From contig NZ_LAPT01000036.1 of assembly GCF_003194385.1 (NCBI RefSeq), positions 1 through 64,000 on the forward strand: a stretch of 64,000 nucleotides of DNA, written 5' to 3'. The translations under genes were made by a program, and so were the position numbers. Of the stretch, positions 49,892-63,164 are shown in pieces (position 1 is the first letter of the stretch; the number at the start of each line of letters is the position of its first letter). This stretch comes from Pokkaliibacter plantistimulans. GTDB lineage: Bacteria; Pseudomonadota; Gammaproteobacteria; Pseudomonadales; Balneatricaceae. The notes under the pieces are model-generated. The model saw only the letters and a list, made by a program, of their open reading frames with translations, had not been told where the DNA came from and did not search any database.

Positions 49892-52189
49892 ATGCCTAAA
49901 CTGGAGACGTTACGCAAGATAGTGCAGGAGGTGGACAGCGCCGAGACGCTGGACGACGCTCTGGTGCTTATTGTGAAACGTATCCGCAGTGCCATGAGCA
50001 CGCACGTTTGCTCCGTTTACCTGTTTGACAAAGATCTGCAGGCCTTCGTACTGATGGCCACCGAGGGTTTGCATCAGAAGTCCGTCGGACAGGTCAGCAT
50101 CCCTCTGCATGAAGGTCTGGTGGGTCTGGTTGGTCAGCGGGCAGAGCCCCTTAACCTGGATGACGCCGCCCAGCATCCTCAATTCCGCTATTTCGAAGAA
50201 ACCGGTGAAGAGCGCTTCAAGTCCTTCCTCGGTGTGCCCATCATTCATCAGCGCCGGGTACTCGGTGTGCTGATCGTCCAGCAGCGTGAGCAGCGCAAGT
50301 TCGATGAAGGTGATGAAGCCTTTCTGGTAACCATGTCGGCCCAGCTGGCGGGCATCATTGCTCACGCTGAAGCCACCGTTGGTATCTACTCCTCTACCAA
50401 TCAGACGGAAACCGTCGGTTCGGAAAGCAAGTACGACGGTATTGCCGCTTCTCCCGGTGTGGCTATCGGTGTGGGTGTGGTGATGGCGCCCCCGGCCGAT
50501 CTCACCACGGTGCCGCAGAAGACGATCAGTGAAGACAAGATTGCACTGGAAATCGAACGCTTTCAGGCGGCCCTGAAGCAGGTCCGGCGCGATATCCGGG
50601 CGGTAGGCCGGACGCTGTCGAAGCGCCTGCGCAAGGACGAGGCTGCGCTTTTTGACGTCTATCTGCGCATGCTGGATGACAATGCCCTGCCCGGCGAAGT
50701 TATCAGTCTGATTGAAGACGGCCAGTGGGCGCAGGGTGCGCTCTGCGCCGTGGCGATGGAGCATATTCGCCAGTTTTCCCTGATGGATGACCCCTACCTG
50801 CGTGAACGGGCCACGGATATTCGTGACCTTGGCCGCCGGGTATTGTCCTACCTGCAGGAAGAAGCCAGTGCGGAGCCCAAACAGTTTCCGCCGCACACGA
50901 TTCTGATTGCTGAAGAAGTGACCCCTGCCATGCTGGGGGAAGTGCCACCGGAATCGCTGGTGGGGTTGGTATCCGTATTAGGTTCATCCAACTCCCATGC
51001 GGCCATTCTGGCGCGCTCCATGGGGATTCCTACCCTGATGGGGGCCGTCGATCTGCCGATGACCCAGCTGGACGGACAGGATCTGGTGCTGGATGGCTAC
51101 ATGGGACGGGTCTTCGTCAATGCATCCAAGGACCTGCGTCATTACTACGAGCTGATTATCGCTGAGGAGCGGCAATTGGTAGTGGGGCTGGAGGCGATCC
51201 GCGATCTGCCAGCGGAGACGCTTGATGGGCGCAGCATTCCCCTGTGGGTGAATACTGCCATGGGCGCAGATGTTAACCGCTCACTGGAGCGGGGTGCTGA
51301 AGGTATCGGTCTGTACCGTACCGAAGTGCCCTTCATGATTCGCGAGTCTTTCCCCACCGAAGCCGAACAGGTACAGAGTTACCGGGTGCAGCTGGAGTCC
51401 TTTGCGCCGCGCTCCGTGACGATGCGTACGCTGGATATCGGCGGGGATAAGGCGCTGCCGTATTTCCCCATTGAGGAAGATAACCCCTTTCTTGGCTGGC
51501 GCGGTATCCGGGTCACGCTGGATCATCCCGAGATTTTCAAGGTGCAGGTACGCGCCATGCTGAAAGCCAGCATCGGCCTCGACAACCTGCGCATCATGCT
51601 GCCGATGGTGTCCTATGTCGGTGAAGTCATCGAAGCCAAACGCCTGATCAACGATGCGCTCAACGAGCTGCGTGATGAAGGCCTGCCGATTGCACGCCCC
51701 GCCCTCGGCGTGATGATCGAAGTACCTGCGGCGGTGTATCAGGCACGGGATATTGCCCGTCATGTTGACTTCCTGTCGGTGGGCAGCAACGACCTGACGC
51801 AGTATCTGCTGGCGGTGGATCGCAACAATCCGCGGGTCGCCGGACTTTATCATTCCTATCATCCGGCGGTGTTGCAGGCGCTGCGCTGCGTGGTTGAGGA
51901 AGGGCATAAGGAAGGGGTGCAGGTCAGCATCTGTGGTGAAATGGCAGGCGACCCCGGCGGTGCCGTGCTGCTGATGGCCATGGGCTACGATGTGCTGTCC
52001 ATGAGCCCGATCCATCTGCCCAAGGTCAAGGCGGCGATCCGTGCGGTCAAGTATGCCGAAGCCTGTGCCATGCTCGATAACGTCATGCAGCTGCTCGATC
52101 CCAAAGCGGTGGAAGAGGCTATCTATACCCTGCTGTATGATGCGGGCGTCGGCCGGCTGGGTAACCGTCGTAACCTTGAGGCGGGCTAA
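49892..52189 (+). CDS. ptsP: PTS enzyme I-Ntr (PtsP), GAF-domain PEP-protein phosphotransferase
   Basis: PtsP starts the nitrogen PTS phosphorelay by passing phosphate from PEP to NPr (PtsO). The 765 residues hold an N-terminal GAF domain (about 15-160), the N-terminal enzyme I domain with phospho-His369 (SNSHAAILARSMGIP), and the PEP-binding barrel with GAEGIGLYRTEVPF and the signature DFLSVGSNDLTQY. The catalytic Cys is in VSICGEMAGDP. The TauE-like, lgt and thyA genes downstream follow the pseudomonad order, but two kinase genes are inserted. Confidence 0.95.
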   Translation: MPKLETLRKIVQEVDSAETLDDALVLIVKRIRSAMSTHVCSVYLFDKDLQAFVLMATEGLHQKSVGQVSIPLHEGLVGLVGQRAEPLNLDDAAQHPQFRYFEETGEERFKSFLGVPIIHQRRVLGVLIVQQREQRKFDEGDEAFLVTMSAQLAGIIAHAEATVGIYSSTNQTETVGSESKYDGIAASPGVAIGVGVVMAPPADLTTVPQKTISEDKIALEIERFQAALKQVRRDIRAVGRTLSKRLRKDEAALFDVYLRMLDDNALPGEVISLIEDGQWAQGALCAVAMEHIRQFSLMDDPYLRERATDIRDLGRRVLSYLQEEASAEPKQFPPHTILIAEEVTPAMLGEVPPESLVGLVSVLGSSNSHAAILARSMGIPTLMGAVDLPMTQLDGQDLVLDGYMGRVFVNASKDLRHYYELIIAEERQLVVGLEAIRDLPAETLDGRSIPLWVNTAMGADVNRSLERGAEGIGLYRTEVPFMIRESFPTEAEQVQSYRVQLESFAPRSVTMRTLDIGGDKALPYFPIEEDNPFLGWRGIRVTLDHPEIFKVQVRAMLKASIGLDNLRIMLPMVSYVGEVIEAKRLINDALNELRDEGLPIARPALGVMIEVPAAVYQARDIARHVDFLSVGSNDLTQYLLAVDRNNPRVAGLYHSYHPAVLQALRCVVEEGHKEGVQVSICGEMAGDPGGAVLLMAMGYDVLSMSPIHLPKVKAAIRAVKYAEACAMLDNVMQLLDPKAVEEAIYTLLYDAGVGRLGNRRNLEAG

Positions 52190-52222
52190 ACCCCACTCGT
52201 GCGACAGACTGATGTGATTACG

Positions 52223-52244
52223 GAAGGCCGCTAATGCGGCCTTC
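52223..52244. terminator. Hairpin after ptsP
   Basis: GAAGGCCGC and GCGGCCTTC make a 9-bp stem with a TAAT loop between ptsP (+) and the kinase-like gene (-). The T run is weak. Confidence 0.6.
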
Positions 52245-52249
52245 AGCGT

Positions 52250-54433
52250 TTATTGCTCAGGGGCTGAGGTTGCATTCTGGGGCGGGCGAGGCTGCAGCGG
52301 CAGGCGCAAACGCAGGCTGAACCCCTTCTGTTGCGGGCCAAACACGCCAAAGACCAGCTGTGCCTGCAGCTGCTGCACCAACTCATTGATCATCAGGCTG
52401 CGGATCGGATTGCTGCCGCTATCAGCGGTCATGCTCTGCCACTGGCTGGTGGCGTCGCCGTCGGCATCTTCCAGTTCAATCTGGATATCCTCTTCCTCCT
52501 GGCGCGTGCGTATGCGCAGACGCCCGTTGCCCTGCAGCGACTCTTCCGCCTGAATCAGCAGATGGATCATCAGCTGGCTCAGTTGCAGGACATTGCCCTG
52601 ATAAGGCGGCAGCTCGGCGAAGTCCTGCTGAATCAGGATGTGTTCACTGATCTCGGTGCGCAGCACTTCCAGCACGCTGGTGATCAGGCCATTGACCTCC
52701 ATGGGGATATGCCCCCCTTGTTCAGCTTCGGCCAGATGCTGCAGCTCCTTGACGGTTTGTTCTACCTGATTGAGGCCTGCCAGCGTCGTGGTCAGATGCT
52801 GGTCAAGCATATCCATCTCGGTATTGCAGACCTGACTGAGCTCCGGCAGCAACGGTGAATCAGGCTGCTCGACGCTGATACGCTGATAGATGTTGTCCAG
52901 CTTCTGCATGGTCTGCTGACCATTGCTTTGCAGCTGCTGCAATTGATACAGGGCAAAGGCCAGCGGTGCGTGAATTTCGCTGATCACGCCGGAGGTGACC
53001 TGTCCCAGTGCCACCAGTTTTTCCTGTTGCAGCAGCTGTGCCTGGGCCTGCTGCCAGTGCTGGATCAGCTGCTGCTGGCTGCGTCGTTCTTCCTCCAGCG
53101 CCGCGGCAGTGCTTTGCAGCTGCTGGTTGGCATCCTGCAGCGCCTGGGTTCGCTCATTGACGCGCAGCTCCAGCTCGCTGTTGAGCTGCTCCATCTTGCG
53201 CAAGAATTCGGATTTGATCTGTGATGAGGCCAATGCCTGATCGCGGGCTTCTGCCAGAGTCATTTCCAGTGTCTTCTGTTCGCTGATATCGCGGATGACC
53301 ACCACGTAAAGCGCGGGCTGCGAGTTGGCCACCTTGTTGATCTGCAGCATGACCGGGAAGCTGGAGCCATCAGGGCGTAACCCCTGCAGTTCCTTGGGAA
53401 CGTTGCCGGTGGGCAGCCAGTGGTCGGGTGGTGTGCTGAGGGCATTGAAGTACTGGGTCAGCGGTTGCTGCCGCAGTTGCTCCCAGTTGCTGCGCAACAG
53501 CTGGCAGCCTGCCGGGTTGCTTTGCTGGATACGCCATTGCTGGTCAACCAGCATCAGGCTGTCGGCCACGCTGTAGACGATGGCCTGATTCTTGGCGGCG
53601 GTCAGGCGCAGCTCCTGTTCGGCTTCGCTGCGTTGCTGAATCTCGCTCTGCAGGCGTTTGTTGACGTCGAGGGTCTTGTCATTCAGCGCTTCGGCATGGC
53701 GCAGGGATTTATGCAGCCGTGACATGCTGTACCACAGCAGTCCCAGCGCCAGCACGCTAAACAGGGTCTGCACGAAGGTCAGTGACCAGAAGAAGCTGGG
53801 GCCGGTGCCGGTGCTGATATTGCGGGTCACGCTCATGACGCCACGCACGTCGCCGGCTTTCCAGTCGCGCTTGGGGGTGCCGGGATAGGAGTTATGGCAG
53901 GCCACGCAGCTGGGGGAGAGAATGTCGGCACGGGCGTAGCGCAGGGTCAGCTGATCGTTCTTGTCGTCAAACTGATAGAACGGTTCGAAGGAGTTGGAGT
54001 GCAGCGCCCTTAACGCATCATTCTCGAAGGTATCCTGAGGGCCGCCGGACTTGTTCCACGGGAAGGGCAGCTCGCTGAACAGACGAATCCGCAGGCCGGT
54101 ATTCTCGGCCATCAGGTTGCGGGCAAAGTCCATGGTGAAGGAGGTGGGTAGCGGCAGCATGTCATTGTGGAAGGCGTAATCATGGCCAATCCGCATCCCG
54201 GCGTCTTTCGCTTTGGGGACAATCTCCCGCGAGTAAAAAGCGCGAATCTGCATCATCAGCTGCAGGTATTCATCGGCCTGTTGAATGGCCTCCTGCTCCA
54301 GATGATTCCGGTTCTGTTCGTAACTCCACCAGCTGATCGACAGGCTGGCGACGATCAGGACCACGATAAAGGCCGAGAACCAGGTACTGGAAAAGTGGCT
54401 GGCAGACGGTGCTCCTGACTCCTTGGTTGTCAC
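52250..54433 (-). CDS. Heme-binding (DUF3365) sensor kinase-like protein, probable pseudokinase
   Basis: A membrane sensor of 727 residues: helix 1 (about 16-36), a periplasmic DUF3365/Tll0287-like domain (about 50-205) with a heme-c motif CVACH (176-180), helix 2 (about 215-236), a PAS domain (about 280-395), a coiled coil (400-475) and a kinase-like C-terminus. The usual phospho-His in G-V-A-H-E-I-N-N-P is Ser485 here (GVISEIHAP), the N-box N is Q (LLIQAEESL), and the ATP-lid D-x-G-x-G is D-A-D-G-D. Kinase activity is therefore doubtful. The start is GTG. It follows a canonical kinase gene on the same strand. Confidence 0.8.
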   Translation of the reverse strand: MTTKESGAPSASHFSSTWFSAFIVVLIVASLSISWWSYEQNRNHLEQEAIQQADEYLQLMMQIRAFYSREIVPKAKDAGMRIGHDYAFHNDMLPLPTSFTMDFARNLMAENTGLRIRLFSELPFPWNKSGGPQDTFENDALRALHSNSFEPFYQFDDKNDQLTLRYARADILSPSCVACHNSYPGTPKRDWKAGDVRGVMSVTRNISTGTGPSFFWSLTFVQTLFSVLALGLLWYSMSRLHKSLRHAEALNDKTLDVNKRLQSEIQQRSEAEQELRLTAAKNQAIVYSVADSLMLVDQQWRIQQSNPAGCQLLRSNWEQLRQQPLTQYFNALSTPPDHWLPTGNVPKELQGLRPDGSSFPVMLQINKVANSQPALYVVVIRDISEQKTLEMTLAEARDQALASSQIKSEFLRKMEQLNSELELRVNERTQALQDANQQLQSTAAALEEERRSQQQLIQHWQQAQAQLLQQEKLVALGQVTSGVISEIHAPLAFALYQLQQLQSNGQQTMQKLDNIYQRISVEQPDSPLLPELSQVCNTEMDMLDQHLTTTLAGLNQVEQTVKELQHLAEAEQGGHIPMEVNGLITSVLEVLRTEISEHILIQQDFAELPPYQGNVLQLSQLMIHLLIQAEESLQGNGRLRIRTRQEEEDIQIELEDADGDATSQWQSMTADSGSNPIRSLMINELVQQLQAQLVFGVFGPQQKGFSLRLRLPLQPRPPQNATSAPEQ

Positions 54434-54454
54434 TGCATGGTTCCCGATAGCAAG

Positions 54455-54504
54455 GGGCAGCCCCTGATCCGCCGTGACGATTCATGGTGGATCTGGGGCT
54501 GCCC
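54455..54504 (-). repeat. Hairpin between the two kinase genes
   Basis: GGGCAGCCCCTGATCC (54455-54470) and GGATCTGGGGCTGCCC (54489-54504) pair over 16 bp with one mismatch. There is no T run on the minus strand. It may partly separate expression of the two tandem genes. Confidence 0.55.
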
Positions 54505-54545
54505 GAAAAATGAGTAAGGGGCTCGATGAGGCAAGCGACCGTCGA

Positions 54546-56906
54546 TCAGGAGCGGTGATCGACCTCCAGACTGACCGGTTGCTTGATAGGTAGCCACAGC
54601 GTAAAGCAGGTTCCCTGGCCTTTGACACTGGTCACATCGATGCGCCCGTGATGTTTTTCCATAATATTGTAACTCATGGCCAGACCCAAGCCCGTGCCCT
54701 TGCCCACCGGCTTGGTGGTGAAGAAGGGGTTGAAGATCTGGCCCAGATGCTTCTCATCAATGCCGCTGCCGGTGTCTTCCACCTGAATATAGACCTGATC
54801 ATCTTTCTGGCCGGTGCGCACGGTGACCCTGCCAAACTGCTCGATCGCCTGGGCGGCGTTGATCAGCAGGTTGAGCAGCACCTGATTGATCTGTGAGGGG
54901 ATGCACTCCACGGCGGGCAGATTGCCGTACTCACGGACGACTTCGGCTTTGTACTTGAGCTCGTTGTGGGCGATGTTGAGGGTGCTTTCCAGACCTTTGT
55001 GCACATCGGTCCAGGCCCAGTCGCTATCGCCCCCGTGTGAGAATTCACGCAGATCTTCAATGATCTTCTTCACCCGTCGCGTGCCTTCGCGCGACTCTTC
55101 CACCAGTGCCTGCAGGTCATTGATGAGAAAGTCGTAATCCAGCTGGATCTTGAGCTCGTCGAGAGACTGACGGGCCGGGTCACTGCTGGGCAGCAGGGCA
55201 TGTTCATAGGCCTGATTGAGGCTGAGCAGATCGCCGACGTAATCTCCCATGGCTTCGATATTGGCAGAGATGTAAGCCATGGGATTGTTGATCTCATGGG
55301 CCACACCGGCTGCCAGCTGGCCAATGGAGGCCATTTTTTCTGACTGCACCAGCTGCGCCTGCGTTTGTCTCAGCTCATCAATCAGCTGCGCCTTGGCGGT
55401 ATTTTCCTGATTGAGCTGGTGATTGAGGTCCTGCAGCTCCTGAGTGCGTGTGGTCACCCGCGCTTCCAGCTCCTGATTAAGGTTTTCCAGATTGGTCTTG
55501 GCTTCTTCCAGCGCCTGGGTGTATTGTCCCAGCGCCTTACCCATCTGGATCAGGCCGGTGGCGGTCTCCTGGGCCTCACGTACGACAAAGGGTTCCAGAT
55601 TCTGGTAGTAGTCGCCTTCCCCGATTCGCTTCATGGTGGCCGACAGCGCCTGCAGGGGCATGGCGACCGACTGACTAAGGGTGAATGCCTTGCGATAGAG
55701 ATAAACAAAGAAGCACAGATAGAACAGTACCAGTACACCGATCATCAGATAGCCAATGCGATTGAAGCGGGCGTTGAGCACCATGGCATCGGTGTAGATA
55801 TTGTCATCATCGACCAGCAGCAGGAGCGACCAGTTGGTGCCACGAATGGTATGCCAGCTGACCAGCATCAGATCGTTGTTAAGGTTGAGTTCGGTGATGC
55901 CACTGTTGGCTTTCTGCATCGCCTGACTGAGCGCCTGCGTATCAGCACGCTTGTGGAGGTTGAATTCATCGGGTTTGAAAGTGTCCTGCCGAATGGCATC
56001 GGCATACGACTGATTGGTCAGCTCTTTCAGGCCCCAGGCCTCTTCACCTTGCGGCGGCAGGGCCATGATGGTGCCGCTCTTGTCCACCAGAATGCCGTAG
56101 CCCTGCCAGGGCACATCAAGATGAAGTATCTGTTTGATCAGTTGTTCCAGGGTGATGTCCAGCCCAACCACGGCTTCCGGTCCTTTGGCCGGATCACTGC
56201 CGGGCAGGTACACCGGGGCGATGCAGGACGTCATCCAGCCCTGTCCGGCCGGATCGATGTAGACATCCGTCCAGACCGGCCCCTTGCCGGGGTTGTGCTT
56301 GATGTCGGCATCGTAGAAGAAGTTGTACTCGGTGATCTTCATGTCGTGGGGATACTGATCAATGACATCGAAGTAGGGATAGATGCGATTCATCGAGTCC
56401 CGGGTGTTGATGTAGGCCTGCGTCACCAGTGGCTGGGCATCGACCACATCACGCATCACGTTATCGAGCTGACCGAGCTGCAGGGCCTTGTCACGCTGCG
56501 TCTGGCCAATGGTGTTGATGTTGGAATAAAACAGTGCCGCCCGTCCCGGCAATTCACGGGTGGTATGCAGCACGCCGTCGGTCACTGAATAGCGCTGCTG
56601 TTCTTCACTGCTGGCCTGATACGGGGTCTGGTAGGCTACCTCGGTCTGACGCTGGAGCAGTCGGGTCATATGCGCCACACTGTCGAGCTGGTCAGAAATA
56701 CGCCCGGCCTCAAGATTGGCCACGCCCTGCAGCTGGTCTTTGGCCAGCCGTTGCAGAGTCTGAATATTCTCGTCGCGGATGATGGCATTGGTCAGCAAGT
56801 AGGCTACCACCAGTGCCAGTTCGATCAGAATGATCGGGAGCAGGGCGCTGCGCAGATAGGAGCGCCACACCAGGCTGAAGAAGGACTGAGAGCGGGGTGT
56901 AGTCAT
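54546..56906 (-). CDS. Sensor histidine kinase with periplasmic Cache domain
   Basis: A 786-residue kinase with two membrane helices (about 20-42 and 385-405) that enclose a large dCache sensor (about 60-370). A HAMP-like region, coiled coil (450-525) and HisKA domain with phospho-His537 (GVAHEINNPMAY) follow. The HATPase_c domain has N-box LLINAAQAI, VEDTGSGI and FFTTKPVGKGTGLGLA. The ATG at 56906 is the best start; the frame is open to 56990. No response regulator gene is adjacent. It is directly upstream of the degenerate kinase-like gene. Confidence 0.87.
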   Translation of the reverse strand: MTTPRSQSFFSLVWRSYLRSALLPIILIELALVVAYLLTNAIIRDENIQTLQRLAKDQLQGVANLEAGRISDQLDSVAHMTRLLQRQTEVAYQTPYQASSEEQQRYSVTDGVLHTTRELPGRAALFYSNINTIGQTQRDKALQLGQLDNVMRDVVDAQPLVTQAYINTRDSMNRIYPYFDVIDQYPHDMKITEYNFFYDADIKHNPGKGPVWTDVYIDPAGQGWMTSCIAPVYLPGSDPAKGPEAVVGLDITLEQLIKQILHLDVPWQGYGILVDKSGTIMALPPQGEEAWGLKELTNQSYADAIRQDTFKPDEFNLHKRADTQALSQAMQKANSGITELNLNNDLMLVSWHTIRGTNWSLLLLVDDDNIYTDAMVLNARFNRIGYLMIGVLVLFYLCFFVYLYRKAFTLSQSVAMPLQALSATMKRIGEGDYYQNLEPFVVREAQETATGLIQMGKALGQYTQALEEAKTNLENLNQELEARVTTRTQELQDLNHQLNQENTAKAQLIDELRQTQAQLVQSEKMASIGQLAAGVAHEINNPMAYISANIEAMGDYVGDLLSLNQAYEHALLPSSDPARQSLDELKIQLDYDFLINDLQALVEESREGTRRVKKIIEDLREFSHGGDSDWAWTDVHKGLESTLNIAHNELKYKAEVVREYGNLPAVECIPSQINQVLLNLLINAAQAIEQFGRVTVRTGQKDDQVYIQVEDTGSGIDEKHLGQIFNPFFTTKPVGKGTGLGLAMSYNIMEKHHGRIDVTSVKGQGTCFTLWLPIKQPVSLEVDHRS

Positions 56907-57057
56907 GACCGTGATCCAATAGGCATGCAACAGAGGACCTGCCTGACCGCCATTGAGAACTGCCGGATGACATAGAGGCGGGTGTGGCAAATCACATTTC
57001 TACCTGATGCGCGTCAAACAGCAGCAGGCCTTAAGGTGTCTTTTGAGACACTTATAA

Positions 57058-57882
57058 CTAAGCGGCAAATCCATTTCTGCCCCGAACGTGCCAGCTTTCA
57101 CAGGTTTGCTGAAAAGCATAGCCGCCGGGGGAAAAACTGCACTCCCGCACGCTGATCAGCCCTGCCTGATCGCGGCTGAGGCCGAGACTGGAGCGGGTCC
57201 CGTAACCGGGGCTGGCAATAAAACAGGAAGACAGACGCTGCTCCCACTCCACGCTGATGCCGGTATCGGGCAACTCTGCAGTGGGCGCCTGCTGACGGCT
57301 GCCAAGCAAACGTGGCAACGAGGGCAGATCGCGTCCGGCCGCGAGCCAGTGTTGCATGGCCTGACGGGCCTGCTGTGTTTTCGGCCAGTGGCTGTGCAGC
57401 CGGGCGTTGGACAGCGTATACAGGCCCGGTTGCAGACGTTCGGGCCAGGGCAGACGGTTACTGCAATAGATCACTTCATCCGGGCTGCCGAGCAGCAGGT
57501 TGAAACCGGCGTAGTGGTGGCCCTGTTCCAGCACCTGCAGTGCATAGTCAAAGGCCGACAGGCTGTAGGGGGAGCGGCTGTCCTCATGCTCGGTATCCAT
57601 CTCCAGCTGGCGCAGATAGCCGCTCACCAGTTCGCCCCGGCTGCGCAGGTGATCCGCCTTGCCACTGCCTTCACGGACGTTGGTCAGTGCGGCCCAGTAA
57701 CCGGCGCGATTGATGACGAACCAGCTCCCGCCTGCCTGCAGGTCCTGTCCGCCCCAACATTGAGGAAATTCCGGCCACCAGCGCCCACTGCGGGTCGGAC
57801 GCTGATAGAATTCGTCGCGATTGGCGGCCAGCAGCAGTGGATAGTCAGGATCATGCTGCCAGGCCAGAACCAGCAAACACAT
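57058..57882 (-). CDS. NRDE/TANGO2 family protein
   Basis: A 274-residue protein with the family N-terminus MCLLVLAWQHDPDYPL and the diagnostic NRDEF motif (about 21-25). TANGO2 proteins are linked to heme or acyl-CoA handling in eukaryotes; the bacterial role is unclear. The N-terminal Cys2 after Met may be exposed as a nucleophile, as in related Ntn-type enzymes (inference). AAGGAG precedes ATG 57882; the frame runs back to 58335 only as antisense to the next gene. Confidence 0.85.
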   Translation of the reverse strand: MCLLVLAWQHDPDYPLLLAANRDEFYQRPTRSGRWWPEFPQCWGGQDLQAGGSWFVINRAGYWAALTNVREGSGKADHLRSRGELVSGYLRQLEMDTEHEDSRSPYSLSAFDYALQVLEQGHHYAGFNLLLGSPDEVIYCSNRLPWPERLQPGLYTLSNARLHSHWPKTQQARQAMQHWLAAGRDLPSLPRLLGSRQQAPTAELPDTGISVEWEQRLSSCFIASPGYGTRSSLGLSRDQAGLISVRECSFSPGGYAFQQTCESWHVRGRNGFAA

Positions 57883-57972
57883 GGTGGGCTCCTTGTCTGC
57901 CGTGTCATGCCTTGCGTGAGCTATGACACGGAGGAATGGATGGGAGGCCAGTATGCCGAGTGAGCGAATTTG

Positions 57973-58758
57973 ATGTCTATTTTTTTGCTGTATCTGCTGT
58001 TGGGAGCGGTGGCGGGAGTGCTGGCCGGGTTGTTTGGCATCGGCGGTGGCATGGTGGTTGTACCGGCACTGATCTTTGCTTTCGGTGCCCAGCATCTGCC
58101 GGTGGACGTCCTGACCCATCTGGCCGTGGGGACCTCGCTGGCGTGCATTATCGGCACCGCGATCAGTTCCATCATCGCCCATCATCAGAAGGGCGGGGTG
58201 CTGTGGCCGATTTTTACCAGCTGTACGCTGGGCATTCTGCTCGGCGCGGCACTGGGGGTGAAAACAGCGGTGCTGCTGCCGGGTGCCTTGCTGCAAAAAC
58301 TGATTGGTATCTTTGCTATCTGTGTGGCTCTGCAAATGGCGTTGAATCTCAAGCCCAAAGCCAGCCGCGGACTGCCCGGCAAGCCCGGTCTGGTGGGCGC
58401 GGGCGGGGTTATTGGCTGGGCATCGGCGATTTTTGGTATCGGTGGCGGCACCCTGACTGTGCCGTTTCTCACCTGGTGCAATGTCAGTATGCAGCAGGCT
58501 GTGGGCACCTCAGCGGCGCTGGGGTTGCCGATTGCCATCGTCGGTGCGGCGACCAATATCGTCGCTGGCTGGGATGCGCCGGGTCTGCCGCAGTGGAGTC
58601 TGGGTTATGTTTATCTGCCCGCCGTGCTGGGAATTGTGATCGCCAGCACGCCATTCGCCCGTGTGGGCGCCAGACTGGCGCATCGTCTGCCCGGTCATAT
58701 TTTGAAACGGGCCTTTGCTTTATTGTTGGTGATTGTCGGCATACGGTTCCTGCTTTGA
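57973..58758 (+). CDS. TSUP family (TauE/SafE) membrane exporter
   Basis: A 261-residue membrane protein with about eight helices and the duplicated family motif GIGGGMVVVP (near 23-32) and GIGGGTLTVPFL (near 158-169). TSUP proteins move sulfite, sulfoacetate or similar organosulfur anions. It precedes lgt by 68 bases, the order found in Pseudomonas. The start is ATG 57973; a TTG three bases earlier is unlikely. Confidence 0.88.
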   Translation: MSIFLLYLLLGAVAGVLAGLFGIGGGMVVVPALIFAFGAQHLPVDVLTHLAVGTSLACIIGTAISSIIAHHQKGGVLWPIFTSCTLGILLGAALGVKTAVLLPGALLQKLIGIFAICVALQMALNLKPKASRGLPGKPGLVGAGGVIGWASAIFGIGGGTLTVPFLTWCNVSMQQAVGTSAALGLPIAIVGAATNIVAGWDAPGLPQWSLGYVYLPAVLGIVIASTPFARVGARLAHRLPGHILKRAFALLLVIVGIRFLL

Positions 58759-61072: not shown

Positions 61073-61268
61073 AGCTGTTCAACGAAAGCGCATATCTCCC
61101 TTTTGGCAGACCGTACCAACGCCAATTCTGCCGATCTTGTACTAAGCTTCCAGCACGGGCTGCCGACATCCCGCAGGGGTTCAACCTGACGGTCTGTCGG
61201 TGCGGCCTGTAGTCGTTCCCATCATCTGTTCGTTGTCCTGCATTGGGAATACCACAAGAGGATGTTGT

Positions 61269-63164
61269 ATGAATCTGTCACTGCGTGCGCGCCTGCTGGG
61301 CGTCAGTATCGTTGCCGTGTGCGTGATCGTGCTGGCGCTGGTGTGGGAAACCAACATCACCATGCGTCAGCAGATGCTGGACCAGTTGCTGAAGGATGCC
61401 CAGCATTTCGCCGGTGCTTATGGTGAGGGAGTGGGGCAGTGGCTGCATGACCGCCAGCAGGCCATGACGTCCCTCAAGAAGCAGATCGAAGACCATCCGC
61501 AGGACAGCCCCTACGCCGCCATTCTGCAAACACACAATGCCGCGGGTTTTGCCCTGACCTACTACGGCAATGAGCAGGGGCAGATGTTCCGCCAGGATCC
61601 GGCGCTGGACAAGAACAACGCCAGCTATGATCCGCGCAAGCGTGACTGGTATCAGCAGGCGCTGAAAGAGAACCGGGCGATTGTCACCGCACCTTACATC
61701 AGCGCCACCCTCAAGCAGCTGGTCGTGACGCTGGCGGAGCCGGTAAAGGCCAGTGGCGCAGTCATCGGTGCGGTCGGTGCCAACCTGACGCTGGAGCAGC
61801 TGACCAAACGTACCAATGCACTGGATGTGCCGGGCAAGGGCTACGCCATTCTGGTGGATCGCAGCGACCAGATCATCACCCATCCGCATACCGACTTGCA
61901 GACCAAGTCTGCCGGTGAGCTGAGTCCGCTGTTTGACAGCAGCCACCTGCCTCAGCTGATCAGTGATAACCGCCTGTTTGAAACGTCACTGGATCAGCGT
62001 GAGCGCTTTGTCTATGCCCAGGCTATTCCGCAGACCAACTGGGCGCTGATCTTCGTGATGGACAAAGCCACCCTGATGGCACCGATCTATGACCTGCTGA
62101 TCACCCAGATCGGTATCGCCGTGGTGCTGCTGGCCCTCTTTACCCTGGCGCTGATCTACCTGTTCAAGGTGCTGTTCCGCAATCTGGAGCGTGTCGCCGT
62201 CGCGCTGGAAGACATCGCCGAAGGGGAAGGCGACCTGACCGTGCGCATTCAGGTCAGCAGCAAGGATGAGATTGGCCGTCTGGCCGGTGGTTTCAATCGC
62301 TTTGTTGAACGTATGCAGGGCATTATCAGCCGTCTGCATGGCACCTCGGTGCAGCTGACTGGCGAAGCCGATGGGGTTGCTGGTGCTGCTCACAACCGCA
62401 GCCAGCGGGTGCAGCTGCAGCAGGATGAAATTCATATGGTAGCCACGGCGGTCACCGAGATGGCCATGGCGACTCAGGAAATCGCCGGCAATGCTGAGCG
62501 CACTGCCTCTGCCGCGCAGGATTCGGTCAGCCTCAGCCATGAAGGCCGGGTGCAGGTGGAAAAAAGCCAGGGCTCAATTCGCAGCCTGGCGGATGAAGTG
62601 GAGCAGGCCACCAGCACCATTGCCGAACTGAATCAGCACGCGCAGCAGATCAGTGGCATTCTGGCCACCATCAGCGGTATTGCCGAGCAGACCAATCTGC
62701 TGGCGCTGAATGCGGCCATTGAAGCGGCCCGCGCCGGTGAGCAGGGCCGGGGCTTTGCCGTGGTGGCCGATGAAGTCCGCGTGCTGTCACAGCGGACCCA
62801 TGCCTCCACTGCGGAGATCCAGACCATGATCGAGACCCTGCAGCAGACCACTGCCCGGGCGGTGACGATCATGGAGCGTGGGCATCGGCTGGCCCGTACC
62901 AGCGTGGGTGATGCCGATGCGGCGCATCAGCGTCTGGGGCAGATCACTGAAGCCATCTCCAGTATTGCCGACATGGCCACCCAGATTGCGTCGGCAGCGG
63001 AGGAGCAAACCTCCGTCACTAATGAAATCAATCGCAATACTGAAGCCATTCGCGGCGTGGCCAGTGACATGGCAGAAGAAAGCGAGCAGGCGGCAGCGCA
63101 GGCCAGGGTGCTGCATCAGCTGGCCCGTCAGGTCGAGCAGGAAGTCGGGCGCTTCCGTCTCTGA
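61269..63164 (+). CDS. Methyl-accepting chemotaxis protein with Cache sensor
   Basis: A 631-residue chemoreceptor: helix 1 (about 8-30), periplasmic dCache domain (about 35-275, with the WYQQAL and [12 protein letters not shown] segments of amino-acid or carboxylate sensors), helix 2 (about 285-305), HAMP (310-360) and a signalling domain with the conserved hairpin tip [23 protein letters not shown] 61269 follows AGAGGA; the longer frame to 61200 has no such site. The ligand is unknown. It is monocistronic. Confidence 0.93.

Follow-up and report, generated by a model that had tools for sequence, protein, structure and literature searches.

A predicted heme-c sensor protein with a degenerate histidine kinase core is encoded beside an intact Cache-HAMP kinase in Pokkaliibacter plantistimulans

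Several kinases and kinase-like sensor proteins are known to act through protein contact or beside an intact kinase. The pseudo-histidine kinase DivL of Caulobacter carries a Tyr at the His site and acts by protein contact, whilst RetS modulates GacS by direct contact between the kinase regions of the two proteins. Subfamily-2 plant ethylene receptors, which sense a gas at a membrane, have degenerate kinase domains and work beside receptors with intact ones. In the sections of a study of ChrS drawn on here, this protein is described as a dead kinase that heterodimerises with the intact kinase HrrS, the defect being a laboratory-evolved frameshift in the CA domain (PMC9491836). On the sensory side, the closest described proteins are those with an sCache_heme domain (i.e. 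DUF3365/Tll0287, PF11845). According to the portions of a preprint used here (PMC12889525), none of the sCache_heme proteins formed a stable oxygen complex; a stand-alone protein with a Cys released NO rapidly, the stand-alone proteins being thought to be redox proteins, and a signalling-type protein without an axial Cys (Target 2) released NO slowly, with a koff of 6.25 x 10^-4 per second. The word 'pseudokinase' is absent from the main text of that preprint (PMC12889525), and the titles and abstract openings of open-licence literature on Tll0287, DUF3365, sCache_heme and histidine pseudokinases describe no heme-Cache pseudokinase. Pseudo-histidine kinases as such are already known; for the locus described below the parts are known and the arrangement is new.

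The gene (52250..54433, minus strand, as are its parts, the neighbouring kinase gene and the hairpin described below) lies in a 64,000-nucleotide stretch of the Pokkaliibacter plantistimulans genome (i.e. the window) and encodes, from a GTG start, a protein of 727 aa. An sCache_heme-PAS-coil-pseudokinase architecture was assigned from the open reading frame, Pfam and an ortholog in Balneatrix alpica. The Tll0287-like/sCache_heme domain (PF11845; residues 43-203, 53825..54307) scored 67 bits against a curated Pfam cut-off of 24.1 and was the sole match to this family in the genome. It contains the heme-c motif CVACH (residues 176-180, 53894..53908; CVNCH in the ortholog), and a PAS domain follows at residues 291-385 (53279..53563; PF13426, PAS_9, 28.3 bits against a cut-off of 27), as anticipated by an earlier note, made from the sequence alone, in which the heme-c motif and PAS were described as intact. 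Beyond the PAS domain is a signalling coil (residues 386-450, 53084..53278), recognised by its conservation and by a helix spanning residues 384-522 of a structural model. The remainder consists of a degenerate DHp-like region (residues 451-575, 52709..53083), assigned by alignment and low ortholog identity, and a degenerate ATPase-like region (residues 576-727, 52253..52708), assigned by alignment, ortholog comparison and a kinase-like fold in the model. This AlphaFold2 model, made with eight sequences, was of moderate confidence (mean pLDDT 71.0, pTM 0.33) and a kinase-like helix pair and an ATPase-like domain were still visible. Structural matches to the model included chains of ZraS, DivL and RetS (structure 7n0e), with a poor global superposition that is expected for a long multi-domain model.

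The state of the kinase core was examined with profiles and alignments. With a Pfam limit of E 0.1, the entire protein matched Tll0287-like and PAS_9 and gave no match to HisKA or HATPase_c; the latter two profiles also gave none when residues 386-727 were searched by themselves and the limit was raised to E 10. Weak kinase similarity was detected with NCBIfam (best T2SS_HK, 66.6 bits against a cut-off of 450), making the descent of the protein from a kinase clear. Residues 413-666 were aligned with 17 other kinases, i.e. the neighbouring kinase, its Balneatrix alpica counterpart, 13 matching sequences from genomes of the family and two more from the same genome. All 17 carried His in the column occupied by Ser485 (codon AGC, 52979..52981). 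The N-box of the window protein reads HLLIQAEES, with Gln628 in place of the Asn present in 16 of the 16 other kinases having a residue there, and neither the F-box nor the G2 motif (GTGLGL) of the neighbouring kinase had a counterpart in the aligned window protein. The alignment of H-boxes that the earlier note had proposed thus supported its claims that the phospho-accepting His is replaced by Ser485 and that the N-box and ATP-lid motifs are degraded. A frameshift or sequencing error behind the lost His was rejected, because at least two base changes separate AGC from CAC or CAT and a one-base error cannot explain the loss. No intact H-box was seen by eye in the three frames of the C-terminus of the Balneatrix alpica ortholog. 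Codons of the C-terminal part of the window gene kept a coding pattern (GC3 of 0.71 and 0.77), indicating that the tail is open, is probably translated and has an unbroken reading frame. As judged from sequence, the window protein therefore has none of the marks of a catalytic histidine kinase (i.e. H-box His, N-box Asn, F-box, G2 and profile matches). It is predicted to be a membrane-anchored heme-c sensor subunit that has lost catalysis, with both the loss and the retained sensor being well supported. Its dead kinase tail is unlike those of the sCache_heme kinases, as the H-box His was present in all nine that were examined (L072-L074, L076, L023, L024, L027, L084 and L085).

Only one ortholog was found, at the equivalent locus of Balneatrix alpica DSM 16621 (G018), which belongs to a different genus. 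In a scan of 116 genomes of the family, this protein shared 46% identity over window residues 9-468 with an E of 1.4e-127, as compared to 0 for the window genome and 2.5e-49 for the next best; no other genome fell below 1e-120. Matches at E up to 1e-20 were obtained in 42 of these genomes, most of them restricted to either the heme domain or the transmitter. In five more genomes (G080, G081, G082, G085 and G114) the match extended beyond half of the query, with 25-29% identity, and was in each case a hybrid kinase with an H-box His; inspection by eye indicated a PAS domain in four and a GAF-like part instead in the fifth. Wider sets of genomes were searched as samples. In the order sample, four of 390 genomes matched at E up to 1e-45 (i.e. 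the window genome, Balneatrix alpica and two matching residues 19-278 only), and in the class sample the window genome was the single match among 369 at E up to 1e-60. No ortholog was recovered from genome contigs with the single window sequence, whilst a two-row alignment found six loci, i.e. the Balneatrix alpica ortholog (L071) and five from Burkholderiales/Comamonadaceae MAGs, of which four encode live hybrid kinases (L072-L074 and L076) and one is cut by the contig end (L075). Viral contigs contained no match to the window protein, and none of the 24 matching plasmid records was covered over 80% of the query. Other relatives of the heme domain appeared by eye to be fused to GGDEF domains or to a chemoreceptor module; the close relatives in L008, L009 and L037 are fused to apparent GGDEF diguanylate cyclases.

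The Balneatrix alpica ortholog has the CVNCH motif, PAS and coil, matches PF11845 with 50.1 bits, lacks an H-box His and has a Pro aligned at the position of Ser485. Identity between the two proteins was highest, of seven regions compared, in the coil (63%, 41/65) and reached 52% (84/161) in the heme domain and 37% (35/95) in the PAS domain. Identities of 22% (27/125) and 12% (19/152) were observed for the DHp and CA regions, respectively, with 88 of the 152 positions of the latter being gaps. In the neighbouring kinase of the same two genomes, the corresponding values were 56% (64/114) for DHp and 54% (90/167) for CA, and its own coil was 49% identical (24/49). Judged by these values, the heme domain and coil are conserved about as well as the intact neighbouring kinase and the PAS domain less so, whereas the pseudokinase half looks freed from constraint; as two orthologs are known, this argument, coil included, rests on a single pair with the neighbouring kinase as an internal control. 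The kinase core is predicted to be dead in both bacteria and to have decayed further in Balneatrix alpica.

An unconstrained kinase end could also mark a gene on its way out, in which the sensor end is a relic due to follow. The C-terminal module of the pseudokinase is shortened in Balneatrix alpica and has a branch of 8.67 against a median of 0.46 in a 17-row tree (built without L003, which at 110 aa is too short), and the confinement of matches below 1e-120 to two genomes of the family also agrees with decay. Both open reading frames are, however, intact, the gene has been kept beside the kinase in two genera, and the heme domain and coil have changed about as little as the neighbouring kinase, making such a fate doubtful. 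A second possibility is that the dead kinase domain is itself the working part and, in the manner of DivL, uses DHp and CA to bind a receiver or a kinase. The window protein resembles DivL in being kinase-like without the phospho-His, and the kinase-like fold of the model, with DivL and RetS chains among its structural matches, is in keeping with this idea. Unlike DivL, it has also lost the N-box and ATP-lid motifs, and its ortholog is without most of the kinase core. The DHp and CA regions are the least conserved parts and, in the one pair compared, do not have the appearance of a kinase domain kept as a binding surface; as they are largely gone in the ortholog, a DivL-like role could apply to the window protein only and is improbable.

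A sensor subunit devoid of catalysis would still require an input, and the heme domain provides a candidate. The window protein resembles the sCache_heme signallers in having an above-cut-off domain, a CXXCH motif, long helices flanking the domain, a PAS domain and a kinase-derived tail, and residues 43-203 contain no Cys besides the CVACH pair at 176 and 179. This lack of an axial Cys, as in Target 2 within the portions of PMC12889525 used here, makes NO sensing likelier than electron carrying, so that the 'redox or a gas' of the earlier note can be narrowed by analogy toward NO. If the heme domain served electron transfer or redox chemistry independently of the kinase, with the cytoplasmic part as a mere anchor, this would match what is thought of stand-alone sCache_heme proteins in the same portions of that preprint (PMC12889525). 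Such a role is quite improbable for a protein whose heme domain is flanked by long helices and accompanied by PAS and a conserved coil, and the absence of a candidate axial-ligand Cys fits the signalling group. For the favoured reading as a heme-c sensor subunit, the genomic setting was also surveyed. CcmH, which belongs to the heme-c maturation system, is encoded in the window genome. The nosZ family tested (PF18764) was not matched there and cytochrome d1 only once, just above its cut-off (26.6 against 25.5 bits), whereas the two families were strongly matched in Balneatrix alpica; an internal source of NO would thus be hypothetical for the window genome.

The origin of the protein was considered from the extent of its matches to live kinases. 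Seven live hybrid kinases of the sCache_heme-PAS type, three of them encoded in Burkholderiales MAGs and the other four in genomes of the family, match the front (i.e. helix, Tll0287, helix and PAS), and all of these matches end at residues 409-416. Those to the MAG hybrids stop at residue 416, and those to the family hybrids G080, G081, G082 and G085 stop at residues 414, 415, 414 and 409, respectively. Complete sCache_heme-PAS-kinase-REC hybrids (L072 7941-10760, L073 192-3032 and L074 7944-10751; also L023, L024, L027 and L085) are likely to picture the ancestral architecture of the front half. At the proposed junction (FLRKME, residues 410-415, 53189..53206), which aligns with FLANMS(H) of the live hybrid kinases, the window protein ARDQALASSQIKSEFLRKMEQLNSELELRV tracks these kinases to the Met before their Ser-His and then follows the neighbouring kinase NLENLNQELEARVTTRTQELQ. 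From coil to H-box (residues 413-493), identity to the neighbouring kinase is 46% (37/81). These matches suggest a real fusion between a hybrid-kinase front and a rear from the subfamily of the neighbour, as opposed to divergence of one ancestral kinase. This interpretation is strengthened by the five further family matches, four of which are of the proposed front-donor type and all of which are live kinases. The window protein would then hold two ruined H-boxes, one severed at the junction and one bearing Ser485. The junction appears alike by eye in the Balneatrix alpica protein, indicating that the fusion would predate the split of the two lineages.

Recent tandem duplication of the neighbouring kinase was disfavoured as a source of the rear half. 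Trees in which the pseudokinase was held with the neighbouring kinase, or with both neighbours, were worse (p-AU of 0.012 and 0.020, respectively); given the long branches, this evidence is a hint only, and the placement of the pseudokinase in the 17-row tree was weak (38/68). The donor of the rear half probably lay within the transmitter subfamily of the neighbour, with the neighbour itself being unsupported by the tree. Phosphorylation in trans of another residue, e.g. His488, which follows Ser485 by three positions, is very improbable, as the His488-Ala-Pro that aligns with His-Ala-Pro in the ortholog lies there in a context (PTPTSHAP) that is not an H-box, regional identity is 22% and the 17 other aligned kinases have Asn at this position.

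The likely partner of the heme protein is the product of the adjoining gene (54546..56906), a Cache-HAMP-HisKA-HATPase_c histidine kinase of 786 aa. HisKA and HATPase_c exceeded the Pfam cut-offs, whilst dCache_1 (40.3 against 45 bits) and HAMP (20.3 against 25) fell below them. All catalytic motifs are complete (HEINNP with His537, NLLINAAQA, DTGSGI and GTGLGL), in agreement with the earlier note, which had placed a canonical kinase directly upstream. This kinase also adjoins the Balneatrix alpica ortholog, and gene order is equal in both genomes, i.e. ptsP, then on the other strand the heme protein, the Cache kinase and TANGO2, followed by one open reading frame and lgt. The ortholog starts 1 nt past the kinase gene in Balneatrix alpica, and the two genes are separated by 112 nt in the window genome. 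This gap contains a strong hairpin (GGGCAGCCCC...GGGGCTGCCC; 54455..54504) that lacks a T-run, is present in a single copy in the genome and has minimum and centroid energies of -49.2 and -43 kcal/mol, respectively (z -3.51). The hairpin is impossible in the 1-nt gap of Balneatrix alpica; in the window genome it might change the expression of the heme protein gene or uncouple it from that of the kinase gene. No Rfam family was matched at gathering scores in 52000-58400. A dCache chemoreceptor gene is located near the locus (61200-63164).

Whether relatives of the neighbouring kinase have companions was examined in selected flanking open reading frames of the best 11 loci with full-length relatives besides the two described here (L059-L069). 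A second kinase or kinase fragment adjoins the relative in five of the 11 (L059, L061, L067, L068 and L069), with the companion in L069 matching HATPase_c only; the His was present in the companion sequences examined (L059, L061 and L067). A REC-HDOD protein is encoded beside the relative in at least six of the 11 loci (L059, L060, L062, L063, L067 and L068) and an HD-domain protein in two (L064 and L066). Distant matches to REC-HDOD, at best 28% in the window genome and 37% in Balneatrix alpica, were on contigs other than that of the locus. Companion kinases thus appear to be a recurrent theme for the family of the neighbouring kinase, with the companion in the window lineage having lost catalysis. 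Two further features were recorded among these relatives, namely one in-frame TGA in that of L045 (G040) and an IS66-type transposase gene (L069 7075-8805) that lies downstream of the G022 Cache kinase.

The earlier note had suggested that a pseudokinase could form heterodimers with its neighbour or gate it. The pseudokinase status stands, with both the phospho-acceptor and the ATP site lost, whereas a heterodimer formed through a kinase-type DHp is weakened because the DHp and ATPase domains are largely eroded in the ortholog. Gating of the neighbouring kinase, if it happens, is not weakened in this way and, as the sensor and coil are conserved, would more likely proceed via the coil. Since the window protein is without catalysis of its own, its coil is the best-kept part and the coil of the neighbour is alike, contact with the adjoining kinase would be the simplest output. 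There is perhaps an even chance that the protein is a catalysis-free heme-c sensor subunit, for NO or redox, that acts through its coil on the Cache kinase of the operon. Such a protein would have arisen when an sCache_heme-PAS hybrid kinase was severed at its H-box and its front part was joined to a coil and transmitter of the neighbour's subfamily. The periplasmic heme would bind NO or report the redox state, the signal would travel through PAS and coil, and pairing of this coil with the similar coil of the intact Cache-HAMP kinase would alter kinase activity, giving that kinase a second input.

Comparison with the described systems helps to define this proposal. A coil contact differs from that of RetS with GacS, which is between kinase regions. 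As would be expected of a heterodimerising pseudokinase of the ChrS and HrrS type (PMC9491836, in the sections drawn on here), the window pseudokinase has an intact kinase as its genomic neighbour, and so has its ortholog; unlike that of ChrS, its loss is natural and includes the H-box, and the DHp is eroded in the ortholog. The logic is similar to that of the subfamily-2 ethylene receptors, with an unrelated sensor domain and organism. More tentatively, and with less than even chances, the two genes may specify the parts of a single sensor kinase, namely an intact Cache-HAMP kinase and a dead heme-c subunit, paired by matching coils so that one kinase core would read the heme ligand (e.g. NO) and simultaneously a second periplasmic ligand. 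The subunit would be a hybrid kinase severed at its H-box and given a grafted partner-type coil, after which the rest of its core would have become dispensable.

This locus appears to offer an example from nature of a heme sensor whose sensory half and coil persist and whose kinase half decays, next to an intact kinase that has not decayed. If coil contact is true, the pair would exemplify, in a testable form, a bacterial histidine kinase that receives a sensor subunit in trans. The case also cautions against taking every annotated sCache_heme 'kinase' for a kinase.
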